Origin: Candidatus Termititenax sp.
GTDB taxonomy: Bacteria; Margulisbacteria; Riflemargulisbacteria; GWF2-35-9; DYQY01
Assembly (NCBI GenBank): GCA_020719045.1
Contig: DYQY01000010.1
Coordinates: 1 to 56,561, forward strand
DNA: 56,561 nt
Direction: 5' to 3'
Shown: one piece after another, positions 16,840 through 46,154 of the stretch
Position numbering within the stretch: position 1 is the stretch's first letter
Layout of the letters: every line of letters starts with the position of its first letter
Notes under the pieces: model-generated
Database searches by the model: none
What the model was told of the DNA's origin: nothing
The model's input: only the letters and a program-made list of their open reading frames with translations
Program-made: the position numbers and the translations under genes

Positions 16840-16964
16840 ACCTCTCCCCCTAAAGGTGGAGAACTTTTTATATAAACCTAATTGTTGTCCCCCTCTCCAA
16901 AGATTTTGGAGAGGGGGATTGCTGTATAATCGTAAGTTATCTTTGCTTGTTTAGGGGGTGAGGT
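16840..16964 (-). repeat. Dispersed hairpin element, copy C (diverged)
   Basis: Read on the minus strand it begins ACCTCACCC (16956-16964) and ends GGGAGAGGT (16840-16848), a 9 bp terminal inverted repeat with one mismatch. A central hairpin CCCCTCTCC/GGAGAGGGG matches the core of copies A and B, and AAAGATAAC recalls their internal palindrome. At 125 bp it is shorter than the other two. It overlaps the last codons and stop of the porV-like gene. Confidence 0.65.
16888..16918. terminator. Hairpin between convergent mreB and porV-like genes
   Basis: TCCCCCTCTCCAA paired with TTGGAGAGGGGGA around a 5-nt loop, a very stable GC-rich 13 bp stem that forms the centre of repeat copy C. It lies between convergent genes and could stop transcripts from both sides, although it lacks a long T run. 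Confidence 0.55.
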
Positions 16965-17814
16965 CCATACTAAAACTAAACTGATGTCTAACTCCTAAGT
17001 CAGTAAATGTTGTAGCATAATTAAAGTCTGTATTATCCATTAAAGCTAAGCCTAACCCAGCTGATAACTGGTCTCTGTTGTACCCAAGAAAACCTTTCAT
17101 CTGCTTACTAATCACATATTCTAGCCCTAAAGAAACATACATTGCACTAAATCTATTATGAGAATACATATCAATTACATAGCTAGGTATTATTTGTGAA
17201 CTTAAATATGACAACCCACCAAAAGAAAGCTTATATCCAGCATTATTATATATTTGAATAGTACTATTAAGCTTCATCCTTAACTCATTAGCTAGATGAT
17301 TAACACCAAAAGTCATAAAAAAATCATTAGAAGAAGACTTGTAAGTACTTGCTATTGTTCCAAAAGAAAAACCTACTGAAGTTGAGTAAGTTATGAGCCT
17401 AGAACTTGCAATAATAACAGCAACATCGCTTGCGCTACTTGTCCCAAGGAGAGCCGACGAAGACGAACCTCGCTCTTCTATGCCATCTATAGAAAATCTA
17501 ACCACACCGACACCAATCTTACTATAAGGATCGACAATAGATGGCTCCATAGCATAAAACAAATACATATGCGAAGAATCAAAGTAAAGTGGATTTAAAC
17601 TAAACACAAAGTTCTTTTGAGGATAACTAAAAAGATTGGCTGGATTATACATAACTGCTTCTGCGTCAGTTGCATTAACAAGGCCAGTGTTTCCAAGAGC
17701 TTGAATCCTAGCATTTGCTCCTAAATTCAAAAAATCGTACATTACATCACTTCGAATACTAGTTACAGGAAAGCTTATGGTAAATAGAAATAGAATTAAT
17801 GCTATATTTTTCAT
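16951..17814 (-). CDS. PorV/PorQ-like outer-membrane beta-barrel protein
   Basis: A signal peptide of about 22 residues precedes the hallmark of the PorV/UPF0164 group: DFLNLGANARIQALGNTG then ATDAEAVMYNPANL, followed by alternating strands typical of an outer-membrane barrel. In Bacteroidota PorV is the outer-membrane shuttle that hands C-terminal-domain cargo to the type IX attachment machinery. Its start overlaps by 4 bp the end of a subtilase gene with a type IX-like C-terminal domain, so a cargo-carrier pair is plausible. The last codons (DLTP-stop) are supplied by repeat copy C. The specific role is inference. Confidence 0.75.
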   Translation of the reverse strand: MKNIALILFLFTISFPVTSIRSDVMYDFLNLGANARIQALGNTGLVNATDAEAVMYNPANLFSYPQKNFVFSLNPLYFDSSHMYLFYAMEPSIVDPYSKIGVGVVRFSIDGIEERGSSSSALLGTSSASDVAVIIASSRLITYSTSVGFSFGTIASTYKSSSNDFFMTFGVNHLANELRMKLNSTIQIYNNAGYKLSFGGLSYLSSQIIPSYVIDMYSHNRFSAMYVSLGLEYVISKQMKGFLGYNRDQLSAGLGLALMDNTDFNYATTFTDLGVRHQFSFSMDLTP

Positions 17815-19364
17815 TTTATAAGCACCTTATGATATTTTGTTACAAAACTGCCACCAACGGTAGCTTTAATAACAGCAATATATGGCCCAGGTGGTAAACT
17901 GCTACCACTAGATGATAAATCCCAAACATGATACATTAATGTGCTAGCTGATTGGGAAACATTGTTGTCATATACTTTCCGTCCAGTAATGGAATATATT
18001 GAAATATTGGCATTACTAACTGGCTTAGTAAACTCTGCAAAAAATGTTGTTGAATTAGAATTAAGAATTGCTGATTCTACAGGATTAGGATAATTGTAAT
18101 ATTGAATTATCTGCTCTGTGTTCTGAGTAGAGCTCTTAGAACCTTGAAAAAGTGACAATAGATTATCTGCCCTTACAAGACCAGCACCTAACTGACCTGT
18201 ATATGAACTATTGTAAGCATCTATGTTTTCTGCTGATGACTTTAAATATCCCATTACTTGAGATGGCGTTAAAGTTGGGTCCAGGCTTAAAAGCAAGGAA
18301 ATAATGCCACTAACTGCTGGTGCCGCCATAGATGTACCACTTAAAACAGTATAAGAATTACCTGTATATGTGCTATAAATAATTGAACCAAATGCAGAGA
18401 TATCTACATACTGCGAAGAATAGTTAGAAAAATTTGATTTTGCTTTTGTGCTAGTTAATGAGCTTACACCAATAATCTTATTAGAACCACCATCATTACA
18501 AGCTGGAGTTAGCTTATAGGTTGAGATATTCAAATCCTCATTTCCAGCTGCTACAACCATACAAACACCATTAGAATAGGCATAGTTAATTGCATCTTGC
18601 ATAGCACCTTCAAAAAAAAGTGGGTTGTTAGAGCTATCATAAAAGCCAAAAGACATATTAATAACTTTTGCACCTTTACTTACAGCATAATAAATACCAT
18701 CAATTGCCTGAACAGAAGTACCTGTTCCAGCGTCAGTAAATACTTTTATTGGAAGCAATTTGCAATTCCAATTTAGACCAGTAGCACCTATGCCATTATT
18801 ACTGTTTGCTCCTATTATTCCAGCCACATGAGTACCATGTCCGTTGTAATCCTCAGGATTATTATCATTGTTTCCGTAATCTTTCCAGTCTTGCGTTAAA
18901 CATCTACCAACTAAATCTGGATGATCAGTATCAATACCAGTATCAAGTATTGCTACAATAATCTGCGATGAACCAGTTGTTACATCCCATGCTACTTGCG
19001 CTCCATATCCATCAAATAGACCTCTATAATATGAATCACTTACATAATAGGAATCATTTGGAGCAATTAATAATTTCGCTTGATAATTTGGATGTGCATA
19101 TTCTATATCAGCATCATTATTAAGTTCTGCTAATACATTTTCAGCATTTGCTTCGTCTACCTCAATAATCTTGTATTGATTTGGAGCATATTTAAAAGAA
19201 CGCACGTTACTTACAGAAGCATTCTTTGCTTTTAGACTACTAATACTTCTAGTCTGCATAGTGCTACTATCTTTATACTTTACAATTAACTCGTAAGAAA
19301 AAGAACTTACAAGTAAATTACTTAATACAAATAAACTAACTAAAAGTTTTGCGTTCCATCTCAT
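17811..19364 (-). CDS. Secreted subtilisin-like serine protease with type IX-like sorting domain
   Basis: Extracellular S8 endopeptidase. Order of parts: signal peptide (1-23), I9-like propeptide (about 25-100), catalytic domain with Asp141 (ILDTGIDTDHPD), His176 (NGHGTHVAG), oxyanion Asn275 (AAGNED) and Ser345 (SGTSMAAPA), then a C-terminal beta-sandwich from about 424 with YPNP, ISIYSITGRKVY, PPGPY and a final KYHKVLIK. That last domain resembles type IX secretion type A or FlgD-like C-terminal domains. The 517-residue frame overlaps the end of uvrB by 29 bp; the ATG at 19364 gives a good signal peptide. Confidence 0.93.
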   Translation of the reverse strand: MRWNAKLLVSLFVLSNLLVSSFSYELIVKYKDSSTMQTRSISSLKAKNASVSNVRSFKYAPNQYKIIEVDEANAENVLAELNNDADIEYAHPNYQAKLLIAPNDSYYVSDSYYRGLFDGYGAQVAWDVTTGSSQIIVAILDTGIDTDHPDLVGRCLTQDWKDYGNNDNNPEDYNGHGTHVAGIIGANSNNGIGATGLNWNCKLLPIKVFTDAGTGTSVQAIDGIYYAVSKGAKVINMSFGFYDSSNNPLFFEGAMQDAINYAYSNGVCMVVAAGNEDLNISTYKLTPACNDGGSNKIIGVSSLTSTKAKSNFSNYSSQYVDISAFGSIIYSTYTGNSYTVLSGTSMAAPAVSGIISLLLSLDPTLTPSQVMGYLKSSAENIDAYNSSYTGQLGAGLVRADNLLSLFQGSKSSTQNTEQIIQYYNYPNPVESAILNSNSTTFFAEFTKPVSNANISIYSITGRKVYDNNVSQSASTLMYHVWDLSSSGSSLPPGPYIAVIKATVGGSFVTKYHKVLIK

Positions 19365-34250: not shown

Positions 34251-36017
34251 TTAGCTATTCATATCCTTAGTAAACTGAGCTAAGTGATTAGTAATAACAT
34301 CAGTACTCATTGAACCAACAGCATTTAAGGTACTTATTGTATCTTTAACCTGTGTTATCTCTTGCTGTAAAGCATATAAATCACCAGGGTTCTCTGTAAA
34401 TGTCTGATTATTTGCCATATAGTCTGACATTAATAATAATGTATCAAAAAGCGCCTCAATGGTATTTGCCATACTGTATAGCATTTGTTGATACTTAGTT
34501 GAACCAGCAGGTGCAACGGCAATAGATGTATCCACTGCTATTTCAAAGGCTTTTTGCATTAATGCCCTTGCTCCGCCATTTTCAGGATCAGAATATGCTT
34601 CATGCAGTTCATCATAATAATCATGTGGATTAGTTATTCCCGTAGTTCCAGTTGAGGTTCCAGCTCCACCAGTTATATTATTTACTGCTACATCTGTAAT
34701 ATTTACTATATCGTTTGAAGTTTCATTGTTTAAATTTAAATTGATTTTAAACTCATCACCAAATGCTTCTGTTAAATTATACCTAGTACCATTATATTCC
34801 AAAATAATTTTGCCATTTTCATTTTTAGTTAAATTAATAGTATCAGCACGAGTTGTTCCATGTATTGTAACAACTCCGTCTACTATAGTTGCAACTGAAT
34901 TTGGTATTTGTGTTTGAGCATTATTATTATTGTTTTTCGTACGAATAGTTGAATCAACTGATATTGTATTGTTACCTTGACCACCTCTTATGTCAAAAAT
35001 GGCATTTGTTGGTACCTGTCCATAAGTCTTTAAATTGTAAATATCTCCATTATAATCTAATTCAATATTTTGATTATTGCCTGTTCCCTCAATAGTTAAC
35101 TTTATAACATCATCACCGTCTGTTCCATTTAAAACATAACTTCCATCTGCTGCAATTGACATAAAATTAGGTAATTCACCAGCTGTGAAATAAGAATCCA
35201 CATTATTAACATCTTCCATTACAATATCACCAGAAATACTTGTACTTAACTGGGTAACTCCGTTTACGGAATAACTAAACTCATACTGAGCTTTATTTAA
35301 TTGATTATTCGCGTAAAAAGACTCATTTAGCTGAATATAGTTTCCATCAGCATCATTAATCATTTGTGCAAAATCTAGTTTTACTTCTTGATCATTTATC
35401 ATAAGTCCAACTACTACGTGACCTTGTTCTCCCTGAGTTTCAGAAATATTTACATAAACATTAACTTTTTCTGGAGGGAAACCAGCTGCTAGAAGTAAAC
35501 TTGCAGCTAAGTTACTTAAATCCTCACAGTCGCCAGATTTAGTTGCTAAGGTTTCTTCAACCGTATTCCATCCTTCTCCAGCAGAATCAGCTTCATATGA
35601 AAAGTTGTTTGCTAACAAATTCATAATAAGCTCTAGTCTCATTTCCTCAGCCATATCATCATTAATGCCTAAATCAGCAATAATACTAAGGATATAAGCA
35701 TTTTCTGGTTCAATGTAGCTAGTTACTTCTTTGTTAACTGTTCCAACACCTAAGGAAGCTTTTACGTCTAAGGAAGATTGATAGATTTGCTCTGTAGCTA
35801 CTGCTGACTCAACTTGCTCAGTAGTAGTCGAATAGGAAGGTGATACACCAGTGCTACTTACACCGATATCAGAAATACTACTTTGATAGCTAGCCTCTAT
35901 TGAGCTATCAATGTCTGCACCGACATTAACATAGGAACTCTCAACTTGTTGAGATAATTGGACCTGACTAAGTCCTTCTATGTCTAGTGATGAATCAAAT
36001 CCTGCTTGTCCTGACAT
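34251..36017 (-). CDS. Transglutaminase-like protein with calcium-roll-like repeats and no signal peptide
   Basis: 588 residues. N-terminal 1-95 is Ser/Gln/Val-rich and low in complexity. Residues 100-220 form a transglutaminase/papain-like domain with Cys164 (SGDCEDLSNLAASLLLAAGF), His200 (GEQGHVVVGL) and Asp215 (KLDFA). From about 295 come RTX-like beta-roll segments (NGTDGDDVIKL, IRGGQGNNTISV, HGTTRADTINL), then a helical C-terminal domain (about 465-588). A disordered Ser-rich start, no Sec signal and a helical end recall type III or type I secreted substrates. It might cross-link, cleave or bind proteins outside the cell. AGGGGG precedes the ATG. Function is not established. Confidence 0.7.
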   Translation of the reverse strand: MSGQAGFDSSLDIEGLSQVQLSQQVESSYVNVGADIDSSIEASYQSSISDIGVSSTGVSPSYSTTTEQVESAVATEQIYQSSLDVKASLGVGTVNKEVTSYIEPENAYILSIIADLGINDDMAEEMRLELIMNLLANNFSYEADSAGEGWNTVEETLATKSGDCEDLSNLAASLLLAAGFPPEKVNVYVNISETQGEQGHVVVGLMINDQEVKLDFAQMINDADGNYIQLNESFYANNQLNKAQYEFSYSVNGVTQLSTSISGDIVMEDVNNVDSYFTAGELPNFMSIAADGSYVLNGTDGDDVIKLTIEGTGNNQNIELDYNGDIYNLKTYGQVPTNAIFDIRGGQGNNTISVDSTIRTKNNNNNAQTQIPNSVATIVDGVVTIHGTTRADTINLTKNENGKIILEYNGTRYNLTEAFGDEFKINLNLNNETSNDIVNITDVAVNNITGGAGTSTGTTGITNPHDYYDELHEAYSDPENGGARALMQKAFEIAVDTSIAVAPAGSTKYQQMLYSMANTIEALFDTLLLMSDYMANNQTFTENPGDLYALQQEITQVKDTISTLNAVGSMSTDVITNHLAQFTKDMNS

Positions 36018-36121: not shown

Positions 36122-39100
36122 CTAATTAGCTAAAGATAATACACTAACACTGTCTCTTACAAATGTATAAGCTACTCTGTTATGGCCTTTTTCGTTAAAA
36201 ACCTCAGTATGTCCAAAACTAATACCTAGAGGGTGCTCGTCATCTTTTAATAAATAGGGATCATTTTTTTCACCCATCACAATATCACTAATGTATTTTT
36301 GCTGTAAGCGTACATCCTTTAACCCTTGATAGTTTTCTAAATATCTACCAATTGTTGCATCGCTAACTATAGAATTATTTTTTTGTAGAACAACTTCTGT
36401 TTCTTCTACATTAATGGTTGATGGGATTTCTACTTTTGTAGTCAATCTTCTTCTGTGGTTTCTTCTCATTGAAATATGCACAACATTTTCCAATCCATAA
36501 AGCTCTACTGCACTTTGTAACTCAGCCTTCAATGCTTCTCTATCCTTAGCGATTATTGGCGTTAAAATAGTAACATTATCCCTATTCTCTCTAACAAAAT
36601 AATCAGCGGACAAAATAATTTCTCTTTGTTTCTCTTTATCATCTACAATTGAGCTACCATCAGAGCTTATTGCATACTGTCCTTCATGGTACTTAAGTAG
36701 CATACCAAAACTATTCAATCTGTGAGCTTTGGACTTCTCAGTTATTATTATCTCTTTACTTGAATTGACCTGTTTCATAGAGAATTCGCTAGTCTTATCC
36801 TTACCAATGATTAAGGTTAAGGCTATTTTATTTAGAATAGACTGTAACAACATATGATTACCAGCAAGTTGAACTGGTATTGATTGTAAGGTTAATGCAC
36901 CATTTGCATCTAAATATCCAGTAAGCGAATAATTATTAAAGGAAAAATTAATATATGTTGTACTATTTGCTCGTTTCATTTGAATATGTTTAAGAACCCC
37001 TTTGAGTGGGCCATCATATTCATCAGGAGTAATTGTAACATTTTCTACTAAGTCGAAATTAAAATCATTTTTTAGAGTTGCTAGCTCTTTATCTAAGTCA
37101 GTAATAACGTCACCATCAGGCCTTTGACTCCTTCTTTGCTCAACAAAACGGAATACTATTTGTGATGTTTCTTCAATTTCTTCTTGCTTCATTTTCTCTT
37201 GAAGTTGTTCTGCTTCTCTCTTCTTGGCTTCCTCTAATTCTACTTGTGCTCTTCTTTTTTCTCTTGCTTCGTTGATAAGTTCATCATTTAGTTGTTTATT
37301 TATCTGTTGAATCTTACTTTCTAACCCTCTAATAATTACTTCACCATATGTAATAACGTCATTAATCTTAGAAACAATCGCGTCTCCCTCTTCACCTTTT
37401 TTTACTAACGCTGGTTTTAACTCATTTGGCTTCATTGATAGTTCCTGCTTTAAGACATCAGCATATAATTCAGCTGGTTCTTCTAATCCATCATCCAAAA
37501 GCATAGCATTTAAAGCAATATCTTCAGCATCTTCTTTCAATTTATTTAAGCTTATTAATAAGTCTTTAATTTTTGAAATTATTATTTGATACTTTTCTAT
37601 TTGCTCTTTTAACGGCAAAGTAACTTCAAGAGAAATATTTTCATTATCAATAGATTGTTTATAGCCATGAACCTTAATAATCTCTGGTAGTGACAAAGAC
37701 AGAACTAATTTAACATCTTCCAACTTTTCTCTAAAAGCTTGTATTAATCTAGCTTCTTCAGCAATTCTAGCTTCTTCTGCATCTTGAATCCTTCGTGCCT
37801 CTTCTGCATCTTTAATTGCTTTTTCTGCTGCTTGTTTCCTTGATTTAAGCTCAGAATCAATTAGTCTTATACGATTATCAACAGTTGACCAAATACTCGA
37901 AATATAAGTTGATTGATTAGAATCATTCATCTGTCTTGTTAAGTTTTTTAAACATGAATTTGGCTTATTCTTCCTCAAACTATTAAGCTGAGAAAGATAG
38001 TTGCTTAATTGTCCATCTGTTGATTGCTTTAAAAAATCAGGGAAGTCATTTGATAAATACATGATCTCAAATGCAAAATACAAATTATCTGACTTATCTT
38101 TGCTAGAAATCTTTACTAATATATCGACAATAGCTTTTTTATTATCATTATCTATGGCTTGATGTTTTAATAAATCTAATAAAAACAGAACTTTGTTAGT
38201 ATCAAATTCAGAAATTTCCAAAATATTACGCAAATATTCATTATAAATAATAATATATGAGCTATCCATCAAAGATATTTTGTCTAAAAACTCAGTCAAA
38301 TTTTCTAATTGATAAAAATTACTAATAGTCACCATCCTTAATATATACATATAAAGCTGAAAATTATCTTCTGCGTACTTTTGAATATTTGAATCAGATA
38401 AAAAGGATAAAGGATTAAGGATCGCTAGCGGACTAGATGGCATATATTTAACAGCAGAATGAAAATTGCTTTGATAAGTCTCACCAGTAGCTGCATCAAA
38501 ATCTATAACACCATCACTATTAACACTCATTAACTGAGAACTATTTTTAAGCATATTAAAAACTAGCATTTGCTGATAATAAATAATAAACTGCAAGGCA
38601 TTCTTTAAGGAAGTAATAATCTGAACAACTTGAATATCATAATCTGTTTTTGCTGTTTTATTTAATGATGCTAATCTATTTACAATTAATGGGTAGAGCC
38701 AACCTGCATTTACACTACTTTTATTAACATCCTTATTCATTTCATTTATCAATGGATCACCTATAGCAAGTAACTCTTGAATAATAGATCTATAATTATC
38801 AGTTAAATTATCTGAATGATTTTTTAAATATCCATTTGCTTTAACCAAAACATTTCTGGTACTATCTAGGCCAATATTTCTTGGTGTCAGAATAGTACAA
38901 AAATAGCACAGCAACAAAACAGCGTCCTCGTTTACATCTGATTCGTTTTCTAAATTTGCAGCACTAAGTAACTCAATAGAAATTTTTAAAACCAAATCTG
39001 ATATTTGATTAAATTTTTCTTTTCCAAAACCTTTTTCTGCTTTTATTAGTAAATCTGATAACAAACAAACGTATTCAGTATTATCATCAGAGGAAAAAGC

Positions 39101-39709
39101 ATTTTTACTAATATAGTCTAAGATATGCTCCCAATGATTAATAAATATTAACGGCATATACTCTTCGTCTCTAAAAAAACTTATAAATGAGGGTAATGTT
39201 TTCATCATATCATCGTCCATTGGTCTAGAAGACATTTCCTTGTCTAACTGAACATACATATCTCTTGCAAAAGATAATAATCGTAAATCTTTATCAGCAT
39301 CACACCTAAAAATATTAAAAAACAATATTAGAGCAGATTGATAAATTCCATTATTAGATGGATTCTGAATTGCACTTACTACTTCATAAGCAAGACTTGA
39401 ATTATAGTTTTTTCTAAAATAGTTTATAATATTCTCACTTCTTAGTTCACTACTTAGTAATCTAATAGCCTCTAATCCACCTCCATGAGAACGAACAAAA
39501 CTCATTAATTTATATATATCAAATACATCAAAATATATTCTGCTCCCTGTTAAGGCTTCTTCAGATTCATGAAAACTAAAAAATAACTTTTGAAAACTCT
39601 TAATAAGTGAAGGCGCATAGGCATTATAACCAAAAACACCAATACTCTTTAGTTCTGATATTAACCAATTTAAATCTTTTGTAGGTATACTTATAACTTT
39701 ATTATTCAT
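36122..39709 (-). CDS. Uncharacterised giant helical protein (1195 aa) with central coiled coils
   Basis: No family recognised. Residues 1 to about 600 are alpha-helical with a HEAT/ARM-like rhythm of leucine-rich helices and many Asn/Asp; about 620-680 and 810-850 are Ala/Glu/Arg/Lys coiled coils (AEKAIKDAEEARRIQDAEEA and AREKRRAQVELEEAKKREAE); a C-terminal third of mixed strands and helices follows. No signal peptide or membrane helix. It is separated by 104 bp from the 588 aa gene downstream. The size and coiled coils suggest a scaffold. Codon use and base composition look like the neighbours. Confidence 0.6.
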   Translation of the reverse strand: MNNKVISIPTKDLNWLISELKSIGVFGYNAYAPSLIKSFQKLFFSFHESEEALTGSRIYFDVFDIYKLMSFVRSHGGGLEAIRLLSSELRSENIINYFRKNYNSSLAYEVVSAIQNPSNNGIYQSALILFFNIFRCDADKDLRLLSFARDMYVQLDKEMSSRPMDDDMMKTLPSFISFFRDEEYMPLIFINHWEHILDYISKNAFSSDDNTEYVCLLSDLLIKAEKGFGKEKFNQISDLVLKISIELLSAANLENESDVNEDAVLLLCYFCTILTPRNIGLDSTRNVLVKANGYLKNHSDNLTDNYRSIIQELLAIGDPLINEMNKDVNKSSVNAGWLYPLIVNRLASLNKTAKTDYDIQVVQIITSLKNALQFIIYYQQMLVFNMLKNSSQLMSVNSDGVIDFDAATGETYQSNFHSAVKYMPSSPLAILNPLSFLSDSNIQKYAEDNFQLYMYILRMVTISNFYQLENLTEFLDKISLMDSSYIIIYNEYLRNILEISEFDTNKVLFLLDLLKHQAIDNDNKKAIVDILVKISSKDKSDNLYFAFEIMYLSNDFPDFLKQSTDGQLSNYLSQLNSLRKNKPNSCLKNLTRQMNDSNQSTYISSIWSTVDNRIRLIDSELKSRKQAAEKAIKDAEEARRIQDAEEARIAEEARLIQAFREKLEDVKLVLSLSLPEIIKVHGYKQSIDNENISLEVTLPLKEQIEKYQIIISKIKDLLISLNKLKEDAEDIALNAMLLDDGLEEPAELYADVLKQELSMKPNELKPALVKKGEEGDAIVSKINDVITYGEVIIRGLESKIQQINKQLNDELINEAREKRRAQVELEEAKKREAEQLQEKMKQEEIEETSQIVFRFVEQRRSQRPDGDVITDLDKELATLKNDFNFDLVENVTITPDEYDGPLKGVLKHIQMKRANSTTYINFSFNNYSLTGYLDANGALTLQSIPVQLAGNHMLLQSILNKIALTLIIGKDKTSEFSMKQVNSSKEIIITEKSKAHRLNSFGMLLKYHEGQYAISSDGSSIVDDKEKQREIILSADYFVRENRDNVTILTPIIAKDREALKAELQSAVELYGLENVVHISMRRNHRRRLTTKVEIPSTINVEETEVVLQKNNSIVSDATIGRYLENYQGLKDVRLQQKYISDIVMGEKNDPYLLKDDEHPLGISFGHTEVFNEKGHNRVAYTFVRDSVSVLSLAN

Positions 39710-42259: not shown

Positions 42260-43918
42260 CTAATTATCGTCAAACAACTTATCTATCTCTTGCTGGTCAA
42301 TTGCACCATCTTGTTCACCAAAGCCAGTCAAGTTCAACTTTATAATGCCTTTTCTATTTAAGGCTTTTGCTTGAGAAATGAGAGTATCAGTAGCATCCTG
42401 AACCTCGACATCTGTGTAGTTATCTTTACGCAGGTCAATAACTTCGTTAATCATAGCCCTTAAACCTTCTGAAAGTTCGGAAAAAATATCGTTTCTCTCA
42501 TCTTCTGGCATGTTTATAAAACACAATGCTAGGATATTTGGATCTACTTCCATTAGTAACTTTGTTAATGAGTCTTTTGGCAATAAGGTTAAGTCTTCGA
42601 ACAGAATAATCATATCCCTAATTTCTGTTAGAACATCAGGGTGCTTTTCACTAAGTTGTTTTGCAAGTTCACTCTTCTTCTGATTGGAAAACTTATCAAG
42701 GATTGGCATAACTGAACGTTTGCCACCTACTAATACTAAATTAGCTAATTTCTCATTAAACTGCTTTTCAAGCTCTTGTATTTGCTCTATTGGGTAATCT
42801 ATCTCATATGCAAGATATGGAATAATCTCTGACTGTTCCTCAATTGTATATTTCATAAAAATTATTCTAGATAAATGGCTTGGTAAGAAAGAAACAATTA
42901 TTGCTACATTCTGCCAATACTCATCTATGTTAGCTGCTTTTCCTTTTGGCTTTTCTTGTTGCAAAATAAAAGCAAGTTTAAAAATATTTGATTCATCAAC
43001 AAAAGTGAATAACTCACTTTTAATAACATGCCCCATCTCATCATCATCGCCAGCTTGCTTATGTGATACATCTAAAGAAATCTCATTTCCGAGGCCTGCT
43101 AACCCACCCTGAGCACCTGCCGCAGCTGCTCCTCCTAACGTCGCTGCAGTCCCTTTTGCATCATCACCATCACCTTTAGCACCACCAGCACCGGCAACCT
43201 CTTTCTTAGCTCTTCCAAAAACCACTATTAATAAAACTACTACAATTATTATTACCAAAAAGCCAATAATAATAACAATTAAGTTATTTATATCCATTTG
43301 TGTTTTCATTCCAGCATTAAGTGAAGAATTTGAAGACACAGCAGCATTAATAGCAGCATTTACCTCAGGAATCTTAATATTAATATTAATGGTATTCATT
43401 ATTTCTTTAATACCTTCAATTGTGGCCTGGTTAAAAAAATCAAAAGGTTTATCCCTCTTGTCTAAGGCTCTATTTACTACAATAGTTGAAAGTGGATACT
43501 TATTAAATTCCATGACATCTTTTACCATATCTTCTACGGTTTTCTGGTCTCTAACGTCTGGAGCAATCCATATACCAATATCATAACCATTCAAATAATA
43601 AACCGTTCCTACTCTTGGCGGTTCGATAACCTGATTCGGAACACCTGGTAATAGCAAGTTAGTTGGCTGAGATAATACTTCTTCTTTTTTAGTAACATTT
43701 ACCTTGATGTCTATCATTACTCGTTCAACACCATACACTCTATCTAATAAATGTTGAATTTCTCTATTCTTATTTTGTTGATAAGAAATAACAGCAGCTG
43801 AATCATTAAATGAAAGATATGCTGTTTCTTCAACTGAAAAAGAAACAGAAAGCATTAAAGAGCAAATTATTAATATTTTAATGATTTTTTTAATCACAGT
43901 ATCTCGCATCCTATCCAT
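42260..43918 (-). CDS. FliF-FliG-like single-chain membrane protein with a C-terminal FliM-like motif
   Basis: 552 residues. Signal peptide to about 30; external region (30-210) with VYGVERVMIDIKVNVTKKEE, resembling the FliF/YscJ ring-building fold; transmembrane helix 211-234; Gly/Ala-rich linker (240-280); then cytoplasmic FliG-like region (305-525) in which HPDVLTEIRDMIILFEDL, LTKLLMEVDPNILALCFINM and the end helix copy the FliG middle and C-terminal pattern closely. FliG charged torque residues (R281, D288, D289, R297 in E. coli numbering) appear not to be kept. The tail AIDQQEIDKLFDDN resembles the LSQDEIDALL motif by which FliM binds CheY. GGGG lies before the ATG. Third gene of a TPR-lipoprotein operon. 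Confidence 0.8.
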   Translation of the reverse strand: MDRMRDTVIKKIIKILIICSLMLSVSFSVEETAYLSFNDSAAVISYQQNKNREIQHLLDRVYGVERVMIDIKVNVTKKEEVLSQPTNLLLPGVPNQVIEPPRVGTVYYLNGYDIGIWIAPDVRDQKTVEDMVKDVMEFNKYPLSTIVVNRALDKRDKPFDFFNQATIEGIKEIMNTININIKIPEVNAAINAAVSSNSSLNAGMKTQMDINNLIVIIIGFLVIIIVVVLLIVVFGRAKKEVAGAGGAKGDGDDAKGTAATLGGAAAAGAQGGLAGLGNEISLDVSHKQAGDDDEMGHVIKSELFTFVDESNIFKLAFILQQEKPKGKAANIDEYWQNVAIIVSFLPSHLSRIIFMKYTIEEQSEIIPYLAYEIDYPIEQIQELEKQFNEKLANLVLVGGKRSVMPILDKFSNQKKSELAKQLSEKHPDVLTEIRDMIILFEDLTLLPKDSLTKLLMEVDPNILALCFINMPEDERNDIFSELSEGLRAMINEVIDLRKDNYTDVEVQDATDTLISQAKALNRKGIIKLNLTGFGEQDGAIDQQEIDKLFDDN

Positions 43919-43948: not shown

Positions 43949-45127
43949 CTAATCTAACAGCCATTTTATAGTTATAGACTTATCTCCATTACTTAGAATA
44001 TCGCTATTCCTGTTACTCTCTACTGAATATCCTAACTGAATTAGGTCAAATAATCGATAGTATATATCAAATCCATAGGTAAAGGAGGTAGTGTTGCTAT
44101 AAGTAAATCCAATATATGGAATAAATGCTGAAGTCGCACCAGAATGCAATGGCAGTCCGTATTTAACTCCTAAATATGTCATATTATTTAAAAAATCTTG
44201 ATCGTAATAAACAGAAAGCCAGACATTAGAAACTACATCATAATTAAGATGAACTAAATGATTCATCATTCCTTGAAACTTATACCCAACAGATAACACA
44301 TTTTGACCTTTATCCGCCATACTTTTTTTCTTCTTTGGAGATATAAAATAATAGGAGAGGTCTTGATAGGAAAACCTATCGTCACCCTTAAATACATCAC
44401 TATAGAAACTATCTATGTTCTTGGCATAGATTATCTCGCCTGTTTTAGTGTTTGTAATATTTAGTTGTAGTTTTATAGAGCCTTTTCTATCAATATTAAT
44501 ATTATGATCAGTCTCTCTAACAGCACTATTAACAAAGTTACCAAATGCTCCTAATGTATTATTATAAAAACCAATTAACCATGGCGACTCATGATATGAG
44601 TAATGCAACTGAGCTTCTAATACTCTGTAAGAAATAACATACTCAGCTGGCTTTAAGTGAGTAGGAACCAAATATACATTATTTCTATCTTTTTCAAAAA
44701 ACTCCATTATTTCTTTGTTAAGTAAATCTTTAACATTTATATCTGATACACTTATTTTATTAATAAGCTGAGCTAATTTTGTTTCCTCATAATAAACTGA
44801 GTAGCTTTTATTGGATCTCTCTTGCAGCATCTTATCTACAAATTTAGGCTTTCTTTCTAATAATACATAATTAGAGCTGACTAACTGGTCTGCTATTTTG
44901 CTATCTAGAAATGTTGCCCAAGTATCGTTTTCAGTTTCATCCATATTATATAAATATATGGTACTGCCTGCTGGTATAGCATTATCTAAATACTTTTTAA
45001 TATGTAAATTTGTCATTACCCCATCAACAAAGGACTGATCGAGCTGTGCATTAAGCGTTTCTAACTCCTGACATCCTGTAAACAAGATAAGGAAAGATAA
45101 TAGAATTAAAACATATATTTTTTTCAT
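43949..45127 (-). CDS. Lipoprotein with FlgO/CsgG-like domain and barrel-like C-terminus
   Basis: Lipobox LFTGC places the lipidated Cys at residue 19. The next part (STIYLYNMDETENDTWATFL then KIADQLVSSNYVLLERKPKF and VDKMLQERS) resembles the domain shared by FlgO, CsgG and TolB N-termini, which builds outer-membrane-associated rings. About 110 C-terminal residues alternate like beta strands (YLGVKYGLPL, YIGFTYSN, FTYGFDIYYRLF). FlgO stabilises flagella in Vibrio. It sits 30 bp before the FliF-FliG-like gene and 61 bp after the TPR gene on the same strand, so a shared envelope complex is likely. Domain assignment is inference from short motifs. Confidence 0.65.
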   Translation of the reverse strand: MKKIYVLILLSFLILFTGCQELETLNAQLDQSFVDGVMTNLHIKKYLDNAIPAGSTIYLYNMDETENDTWATFLDSKIADQLVSSNYVLLERKPKFVDKMLQERSNKSYSVYYEETKLAQLINKISVSDINVKDLLNKEIMEFFEKDRNNVYLVPTHLKPAEYVISYRVLEAQLHYSYHESPWLIGFYNNTLGAFGNFVNSAVRETDHNINIDRKGSIKLQLNITNTKTGEIIYAKNIDSFYSDVFKGDDRFSYQDLSYYFISPKKKKSMADKGQNVLSVGYKFQGMMNHLVHLNYDVVSNVWLSVYYDQDFLNNMTYLGVKYGLPLHSGATSAFIPYIGFTYSNTTSFTYGFDIYYRLFDLIQLGYSVESNRNSDILSNGDKSITIKWLLD

Positions 45128-45188: not shown

Positions 45189-46154
45189 TCAAAATGGCAG
45201 TCTAACTTTAGTAGTCTTACCCTGAAAAGAAGCAGATTCTCTTCTTAACAAATCTGCATTTAGTGTAGGTATCTCACTTTCAAAATCACTATTCAACTCT
45301 ATAATCTTGGATGTTGATAATTTATTACTTACCAAACTATCCTTAACTTTAGATTCCTTATACGTTATTGATTCTGCCTTTATAACTTGCTGTTGCTCAA
45401 TTATCGGTTCTATCTTAGGCTCTATTTTAGGCTCAACTTTCACTACTTCTTGTGGCTGAACTACTTCTACCTCTGGCAACTTTTCTTCAATGGCTATTTC
45501 TTCTTTAGGAATCTCTTTGGAAAATATTTCTTTATTCATTCTTGGTTGAGGCTCTATTGTTTTCTTACTAAGACTAACTAATAGATTATAATAATCACTA
45601 TCAGGCTTAATGTCTCGTAAGTCTTCTTTCTTTAAAATTGATAAAGTTTTGTCATGTGGATTTAGTGTTTCAGCGTATTCTAGCTGAGCTCTAGCTTTTC
45701 TTAGCTCACCAAGACCTATCAATGAACGTAGATGCCATAAATGGTATTTCGCAACATTTGGGTCTAGCAGAATGGCTTGCCAGTAGTTTTCTCTAGCAAT
45801 ATCATACTCGGCCTTCATAAAAGCATAATAACCTTTGTGATAATATACCTCTGCATTTTTATTGTGACCACGAATATACTCAACTTGGTCTAACAGTTCT
45901 TTTGCTTCAACCTCGGATGGCTTAAGCTTTACCGCACGAATAAGAGTATCAATTGCATTCTTTTGATTCCCAGAATAAAAGTAAGACTTACCAAGCCATA
46001 AAGTGTTCTTATAGTCCTTTGGATTAGAAGCAACTAGTGACTTAAATATCTCTGCAGCTTCTTCATAGTCACCAATAAAAAACTTATTATATCCATCCTG
46101 AAAAGCAGCATATACTAAGCATATTAATAAAATTATAAGTATTTTTTTTATCAT
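45189..46154 (-). CDS. Exported TPR protein
   Basis: A signal peptide (1-17) precedes four to five tetratricopeptide repeats between about 20 and 180 (YEEAAEIFKSLVASNPKD, KNAIDTLIRAVKLKPSEVE, YDIARENYWQAILLDPN). A Pro/Glu/Val/Lys-rich linker (about 200-275, with KVEPKIEPKIEPIIE) and a short C-terminal end follow. The linker resembles TonB-like stretches that span the periplasm. TPR proteins act as docking scaffolds. It is the first gene of the operon with the FlgO/CsgG-like lipoprotein and the FliF-FliG-like protein, which suggests an accessory role in the same assembly. Confidence 0.75.
   Translation of the reverse strand: MIKKILIILLICLVYAAFQDGYNKFFIGDYEEAAEIFKSLVASNPKDYKNTLWLGKSYFYSGNQKNAIDTLIRAVKLKPSEVEAKELLDQVEYIRGHNKNAEVYYHKGYYAFMKAEYDIARENYWQAILLDPNVAKYHLWHLRSLIGLGELRKARAQLEYAETLNPHDKTLSILKKEDLRDIKPDSDYYNLLVSLSKKTIEPQPRMNKEIFSKEIPKEEIAIEEKLPEVEVVQPQEVVKVEPKIEPKIEPIIEQQQVIKAESITYKESKVKDSLVSNKLSTSKIIELNSDFESEIPTLNADLLRRESASFQGKTTKVRLPF

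Follow-up and report, generated by a model that had tools for sequence, protein, structure and literature searches.

A FliF-FliG fusion protein with a C-terminal FliM-type tail in Margulisbacteria: candidate rotor subunit of a second envelope motor

The fusion gene and its domains

The stretch of DNA analysed here (the window, 56,561 nucleotides) carries on its minus strand, at 42260..43918, an open reading frame for a 552-aa protein, P0001, in which an S-ring domain of the FliF type, one membrane helix, a flexible linker and the middle (M) and C domains of FliG are joined in a single chain, as its sequence and predicted structure together establish. A plus-strand reading of the same interval was rejected, as it is full of stops. 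The features of this gene and of its two upstream neighbours are as follows.

42260..43918, minus strand: FliF(RBM3)-FliG(M,C) fusion with a C-terminal FliM-type tail, P0001 (Pfam, AlphaFold, Foldseek)
43832..43918, minus strand: predicted signal peptide or N-terminal membrane segment, about residues 1-29 (model and sequence)
43424..43831, minus strand: periplasmic RBM3-like (FliF S-ring) domain, about residues 30-165 (Foldseek, hhalign)
43217..43291, minus strand: membrane helix, residues 210-234, corresponding to FliF TM2 (model and sequence)
43019..43216, minus strand: Gly/Ala-rich disordered linker, residues 235-300 (pLDDT <50)
42332..43018, minus strand: FliG middle and C domains, residues 301-529 (Pfam, phmmer, Foldseek)
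42335-42658, minus strand: FliG_C proper
42263..42304, minus strand: FliM-type EIDxLF tail AIDQQEIDKLFDDN, residues 539-552 (conservation, rarity, FliM motif)
43949..45127, minus strand: putative lipoprotein, 392 aa, perhaps co-transcribed with the fusion, ending 30 bp upstream of it
45189..46154, minus strand: exported protein of 321 aa with TPR matches, the next gene upstream and perhaps in the same transcript

The AlphaFold model of P0001, built with 20 homologues, has a helical N-terminus (hydrophobic helix at residues 2-26), an alpha/beta domain at about residues 40-150, a TM helix at 210-234 (the single strong membrane helix of the protein, residues 214-232), a disordered linker at 235-300 that is poorly conserved among orthologues, helical FliG repeats at 312-523 and a short tail helix at 542-550. 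Pfam FliG_C matches residues 421-528 with 54.1 bits (cut-off 23.3) and FliG_M matches residues 332-394 with 22.3 bits, slightly below its cut-off of 25; over the fusions as a group FliG_C is found in 20/20, FliG_M in 18/20 and FliF_C in 3/20. The region matches FliG structure 1lkv by phmmer (E 9e-11), and in Foldseek searches of the PDB the model matches 1lkv (E 2e-8) and 1qc7 (TM 0.86, 2.0 Å). FliG_N has no match in P0001, and the fused FliF part takes its place.

The FliF part was identified by fold and by profile. In the Foldseek search the same model also matches the FliF RBM3 rings 8ftf, 6sd1, 7cg7 and others with probability 1.0, along with SpoIIIAG, and when the N-terminal domain was modelled separately (from 27 homologues) the first 19 Foldseek matches were FliF RBM3 structures, one integrative FliF model and SpoIIIAG. 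The models are of moderate confidence (pLDDT 72) and the TM score to FliF RBM3 is only ~0.4, partly because the FliF collar insertion is absent here. A profile of all the fusions aligns with canonical FliF of the same phylum over RBM3 with 96% probability (hhalign, E 2.4e-9), whereas control families unrelated to either gave at most 1%. The window-type N-domain alone has no significant profile match to canonical FliF (2-9% probability) but matches its own paralogues with 95% probability, so its link to FliF rests on the paralogues and the fold and not on a direct profile match. In the AlphaFold model one domain of ~150 residues precedes the TM helix, and the N-terminal TM helix, RBM1 and RBM2 of FliF are absent; profile comparison and structure therefore indicate that the FliF part consists of RBM3 and the second membrane helix only. 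This single-chain layout links FliF to FliG covalently and does without FliG_N, RBM1 and RBM2.

The C-terminus of P0001 contains QQEIDKLF, which resembles the EIDALL motif that is the CheY-binding site of FliM and FliY (PMC9126983). Some version of this tail is kept by 10/10 window-type orthologues: seven have the C-termini QQEIDKLF, QLEIDKLF, QDEIDALF, QDDIDSLF, QNEIDQLF, QDDVDALF and QDDIDSLF, and three long orthologues have the looser forms IDELF, DIDNLI and DIDAFI. The FliM N-termini of the window's order read ILSQEEINALL, ILSQDEINALL or LTQEELDALL. A strict pattern, Q[DEQNL][DE][IVL][DN]xL[LF], written after the sequences had been seen, occurs in 8/968 proteins of the fetched loci (327,718 residues), and these eight are seven window-type fusions, at the C-terminus, and the genome's own FliM, at the N-terminus. 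A chance match was considered and rejected, since the motif is conserved in orthologues and rare elsewhere. The tail-less paralogues terminate at FliG_C. Docking of CheY on the P0001 tail is an inference from the motif, for which there are no binding data.

Alignment with canonical FliG shows that four of the five torque positions (E. coli numbering) have changed in P0001: R281 is Gly, D289 is Val, K264 is hydrophobic and R297 is lost, and only D288 is retained, as Glu. The equivalent of MotA E98, which faces R281 (MotA/FliG residue pairing as given in PMC12505986), is also changed in the module described below, so coupling of the flagellar type may not operate. The losses on the FliG and MotA sides would fit an interface that changed on both together.

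A preliminary description of this locus, made without database searches, had proposed a signal peptide, about 180 external residues, one helix, a Gly/Ala linker and FliG M/C, in a FliF-like, FliG-like and FliM-type three-part architecture of flagellar origin. The layout held, with the signal peptide still putative and the strand, which had not been given, now fixed as minus; Pfam, AlphaFold/Foldseek and profiles support the three parts, and the RBM3 and FliG homology supports the origin. Either of two outcomes, no structural similarity to FliF or FliG or a tail not conserved in orthologues, would have refuted it, and neither occurred: structure searches matched both FliF RBM3 and FliG, and the tail, kept in all ten orthologues, has the same motif as the FliM N-termini of the order. 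The claimed match to the CheY-binding motif of FliM thus held at motif level, without binding data, and the claimed loss of charged torque residues largely held, D288 being the exception.

Partner genes and type IX-style surface proteins

Gene linkage shows that the window type goes with MotA/MotB, an SLH/TPR protein, CheY-like receivers, a giant coiled-coil protein, a PorV-family barrel and giant exported proteins. In one genome of the order (G033) genes for the coiled coil, fusion, SLH/TPR, CheY, CheY, MotA, MotB, PorV and giant protein are contiguous. The window's own genome (G000) has a partner block without the fusion on contig C11, comprising MotA, MotB, two CheY genes, SLH/TPR, the coiled coil, PorV and a giant-protein gene that runs off the contig end, so that its tail cannot be read; the two receivers are at L184 7948-8307 and 8304-8678. 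In the congeneric genome G028 the fusion is likewise separated from its partners, among which one CheY was recognised. Outside the window's order MotA directly follows the fusion in 14/20 loci. The module's MotA and MotB have Pfam MotA_ExbB, MotB_plug and OmpA matches and are matched by the NCBIfam flagellar MotA/MotB models, in every case below the equivalog cut-offs; in MotB the Asp that binds the ion (GDLM) and the wall-binding GHTDN motif of OmpA are intact. By hhalign the SLH/TPR protein is a homologue of an N-terminal extension carried by the long fusions (100%, E 6e-49). The two genes have therefore become one in these cases: in G034 and in the second copy of G033 the SLH/TPR part stands at the front of the fusion protein. 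Neither in the window nor in the orthologous loci examined were export apparatus, rod or hook genes found around the fusion.

Receiver genes adjoin the fusion or sit in the conserved partner operon in 5/7 genomes of the order, and the receivers retain the phosphorylation Asp; in the other two, G029 and G032, the surroundings of the fusion showed no CheY gene. The tail-less paralogues have no CheY neighbour, with one exception (G034).

Of the window's own genes near the fusion, the putative lipoprotein has no family match and is the same neighbour of the fusion in G028; nothing identifies the exported TPR protein with the SLH/TPR partner, whose gene lies on contig C11. We note that a 1195-aa protein without a family match (36122-39709, minus strand) and a 588-aa protein with a transglutaminase-like domain (34251-36017, minus strand) also lie nearby.

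The barrel of the module, about 400 aa long, belongs to the PorV family: two orthologues score 91.8 and 97.3 bits against an NCBIfam cut-off of 90, and the barrel matches PorV in the PDB (6h3i, E 8e-10). The giants adjoining the modules share a C-terminal domain, NYPNPF...IYN..G...WNGTD..G..LP.GGY...GVIH, which resembles the type A sorting domain. TIGR04183 (cut-off 23) matches two giants of sister (motor-type) modules with 29.6 and 24.0 bits and the window-type giant of G031 with 22.6 bits, slightly under the cut-off; two orthologues of the window class have a full-length giant partner with a C-terminal sorting domain of type IX type. Proteins with sorting tails are many in each genome. The type B sorting domain, TIGR04131, was rejected as the type of tail, having only one weak match in seven genomes.

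A true SprA, or core T9SS translocon, has not been demonstrated. SprA gave only weak matches of ~50 residues (at most 26 bits against a cut-off of 200), in outer-membrane-like proteins of 1.7 kaa that have no PDB match, and for GldM nothing in 7 genomes passed the cut-off, two matches reaching at most 20 bits. One such exported 1.7 kaa protein (L200 7741-12819, with equivalents in L201-L205) has an outer-membrane-like C-terminus, is conserved in the order, lies ~17 kb from the second fusion module and gives faint repeated SprA matches; it is possibly a divergent translocon.

Several further observations concern this class of protein. The window itself encodes, at 16951-17814 on the minus strand, a PorV/PorQ-family barrel (69 bits, cut-off 90) overlapped by the gene for a subtilisin-like protease (17811-19364, minus strand) whose C-terminus is like a type A sorting tail (NYPNPVES...KVLIK; 19.3 bits, cut-off 23). 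Sorting-tail matches at C3:61385-61663 (minus strand) of G000 and C5:36154 of G033 fall within open frames of 16,989 and 12,153 aa, which we read as extremely large exported proteins.

Distribution and relationships of the fused proteins

Relatives of the fusion were found in 29/74 genomes of the phylum at E 1e-5, a count that takes in a few genomes matched only via other FliG proteins. A scan of 84,980 species with window-type patterns found only four loci, in Marinamargulisbacteria/Margulisbacteria, and is too narrow to exclude other phyla. The window's genome, which falls on the Marinamargulisbacteria side of the Margulisbacteria, has four FliG_C genes, namely a canonical FliG, the window fusion, a second fusion and a separate FliG-like protein, the last two on contig C17 and followed there by MotA and MotB; canonical FliF and FliM and two FlhA genes are also encoded. 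That the fusion is an ordinary FliG/FliF duplicate in a flagellar operon was rejected, as canonical FliF, FliG and FliM are located elsewhere. In a tree of the FliG M/C region neither canonical FliG nor the FliG of a third system groups with the fused lineages, whether those of the order or those of the rest of the phylum, so the fusion arose early in the phylum and was not copied recently from flagellar FliG. Some deep forks of this tree are unresolved and a few of its rows are long, and one long outlier (S_L068), probably a FliF picked in error, was ignored. All the genomes are MAGs, in which binning errors are possible, though the pattern recurs in many assemblies, and the gene calls are mechanical.

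In the third system (L122, L123 and L124, in G033, G031 and G005) the FliF-like and FliG proteins are separate chains, accompanied by a FliM-like protein of ~180-190 aa; MotA and MotB are adjacent to it in G033, and no export genes are nearby. In two other genomes of the phylum (G063, L114 7420-7899; G067, L115 9008-9505) a 159-165 aa ORF after FliF resembles the FliG N-domain alone; export and rod genes of flagellar type are present there, but no FliG_C gene. They may represent a flagellar-type system without a rotor.

A possible second motor and its relation to known systems

On balance, and by a modest margin, we favour the view that P0001 is the rotor subunit of a second, flagellum-derived motor that is driven by MotAB, controlled by receivers and acts on surface proteins. 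P0001 would form a ring in the inner membrane, driven through its FliG part by ion flow at MotA/MotB; phosphorylated receivers would dock on the EIDxLF tail and so change direction or activity, and the ring would act through the periplasm on the giant surface proteins associated with PorV, the output being gliding-type movement or the powering of surface-protein secretion. Rotation, CheY binding and the output of the motor are all inferred, without experiment, and gliding and secretion cannot be distinguished with these data. Several points count against this reading: fusion and partners are split between contigs in the genome that holds the window, torque residues are altered in both FliG and MotA, the core T9SS translocon is not demonstrated, and G029 and G032 lack a CheY gene near the fusion. 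A receiver that acts on a surface-protein motor is not without precedent, since in Flavobacterium the type IX motor protein GldL is bound by PorX through its activated CheY-like domain (PMC10951265); this precedent, the kept MotB and receiver residues and the changed torque interface together are why a receiver-controlled, MotAB-driven ring is favoured.

The closest rival is a motor for secretion only, in which a MotAB-driven FliF-FliG ring replaces GldL/GldM in a type IX-like export process without cell movement. The PorV-family barrel and sorting-tail giants of the module speak for it, as do the many sorting-tail proteins per genome with no GldM over cut-off beside them. Against it, no SprA-type translocon has been demonstrated, and there are two paralogous modules per genome of which only one has the EIDxLF tail, which suggests regulated direction or activity, more than secretion alone would need; we regard this alternative as less likely, though a serious one. 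A static envelope scaffold or signalling hub, built from old flagellar folds and not rotating, has in its favour the altered torque positions of FliG and MotA alike, but it is unlikely given that in most genomes the same module has a MotAB with intact ion-binding and wall-binding motifs. That P0001 serves the ordinary flagellum in some accessory role, for example as a variant MS/C-ring subunit, is supported by the genuine FliF and FliG homology and the flagellar FliF, FliG, FliM and FlhA genes of the genome, but is most improbable in view of the fusion's own MotAB, its location away from the flagellar operons, the separation of the fused FliG lineages from canonical and third-system FliG in the tree, and the lack in P0001 of RBM1, RBM2 and the first TM, which surround the export gate.

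The preferred reading, a receiver-controlled and MotAB-driven rotor, bears on the remaining claims of the preliminary description. That the protein is not a classic rotor held for the torque residues only; the MotAB link makes it likely that the protein is a driven rotor all the same, and more than an envelope scaffold. The proposed receiver-like partner is supported by the receiver genes linked in five of the seven genomes, with binding inferred. The MotA/MotB stator and the PorV/type IX-style link had been missed because both lie outside the window.

A bolder reading, which we would neither press nor discount, is that these modules are a separate class of envelope machine, with a flagellar-type rotor and a MotAB stator but no export gate or filament, that drives type IX-style surface proteins under chemotaxis-type control, is widespread in Margulisbacteria and evolved beside the flagellum; its rotor would be a fused FliF-FliG, with a built-in receiver dock in one lineage. 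If true, flagellar rotor and stator parts have built a second machine without filament or export gate, and the flagellar and type IX/gliding motor worlds, thought separate, are joined. It would also bear on which part of the flagellar motor is of use by itself. That question is posed directly by a 2025 survey in which 11% of non-motile species had rotor proteins but no filament proteins (PMC12199754). In the literature searched there was no paper with both type IX secretion and Margulisbacteria, and a survey of MotAB (PMC12505986) mentions neither FliF nor Margulisbacteria.

With the flagellar rotor P0001 shares the FliF RBM3 and FliG M/C folds, the CheY-binding motif of FliM and the company of MotAB stator genes. 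It differs in being one chain and not three, in lacking RBM1, RBM2, FliG_N and the FliM core, in its changed torque residues and in a module without export genes, and its CheY-binding-type tail is C-terminal whereas that of FliM is N-terminal. The only natural precedent found is the FliF-FliG fusion of Chlamydiaceae, a protein of ~330 aa that retains two RBMs and to which only the FliG middle domain is fused, in organisms with no flagellum and with no tail reported (PMC4768692); priority cannot be claimed, as most subscription papers and all preprints lay outside the search. Both are natural membrane proteins that unite a shortened FliF with FliG material, but P0001 has RBM3 only, both FliG M and C and a FliM-type tail, and it goes with a MotAB/CheY/PorV module in a genome with a full flagellar set elsewhere.

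The motor proposed here differs from GldLM/PorLM of Bacteroidota in being of the FliF/FliG/MotAB type, with GldM not over cut-off and SprA not demonstrated; it resembles the type IX/gliding machinery (PMC10202324) in its PorV-family barrel, its exported proteins with type A sorting domains, its putative ion-driven inner-membrane motor and a CheY-like regulator that would bind the motor, as PorX binds GldL (PMC10951265). The covalent FliF-FliG joint has engineered counterparts in Salmonella (PMC4768692) and in Vibrio, where such a fusion served for structures (PMC11481574). Unlike P0001 these are artificial, full-length proteins within a normal flagellum; the Salmonella fusions assemble and rotate, with their direction biased, so the fused architecture is a workable one.
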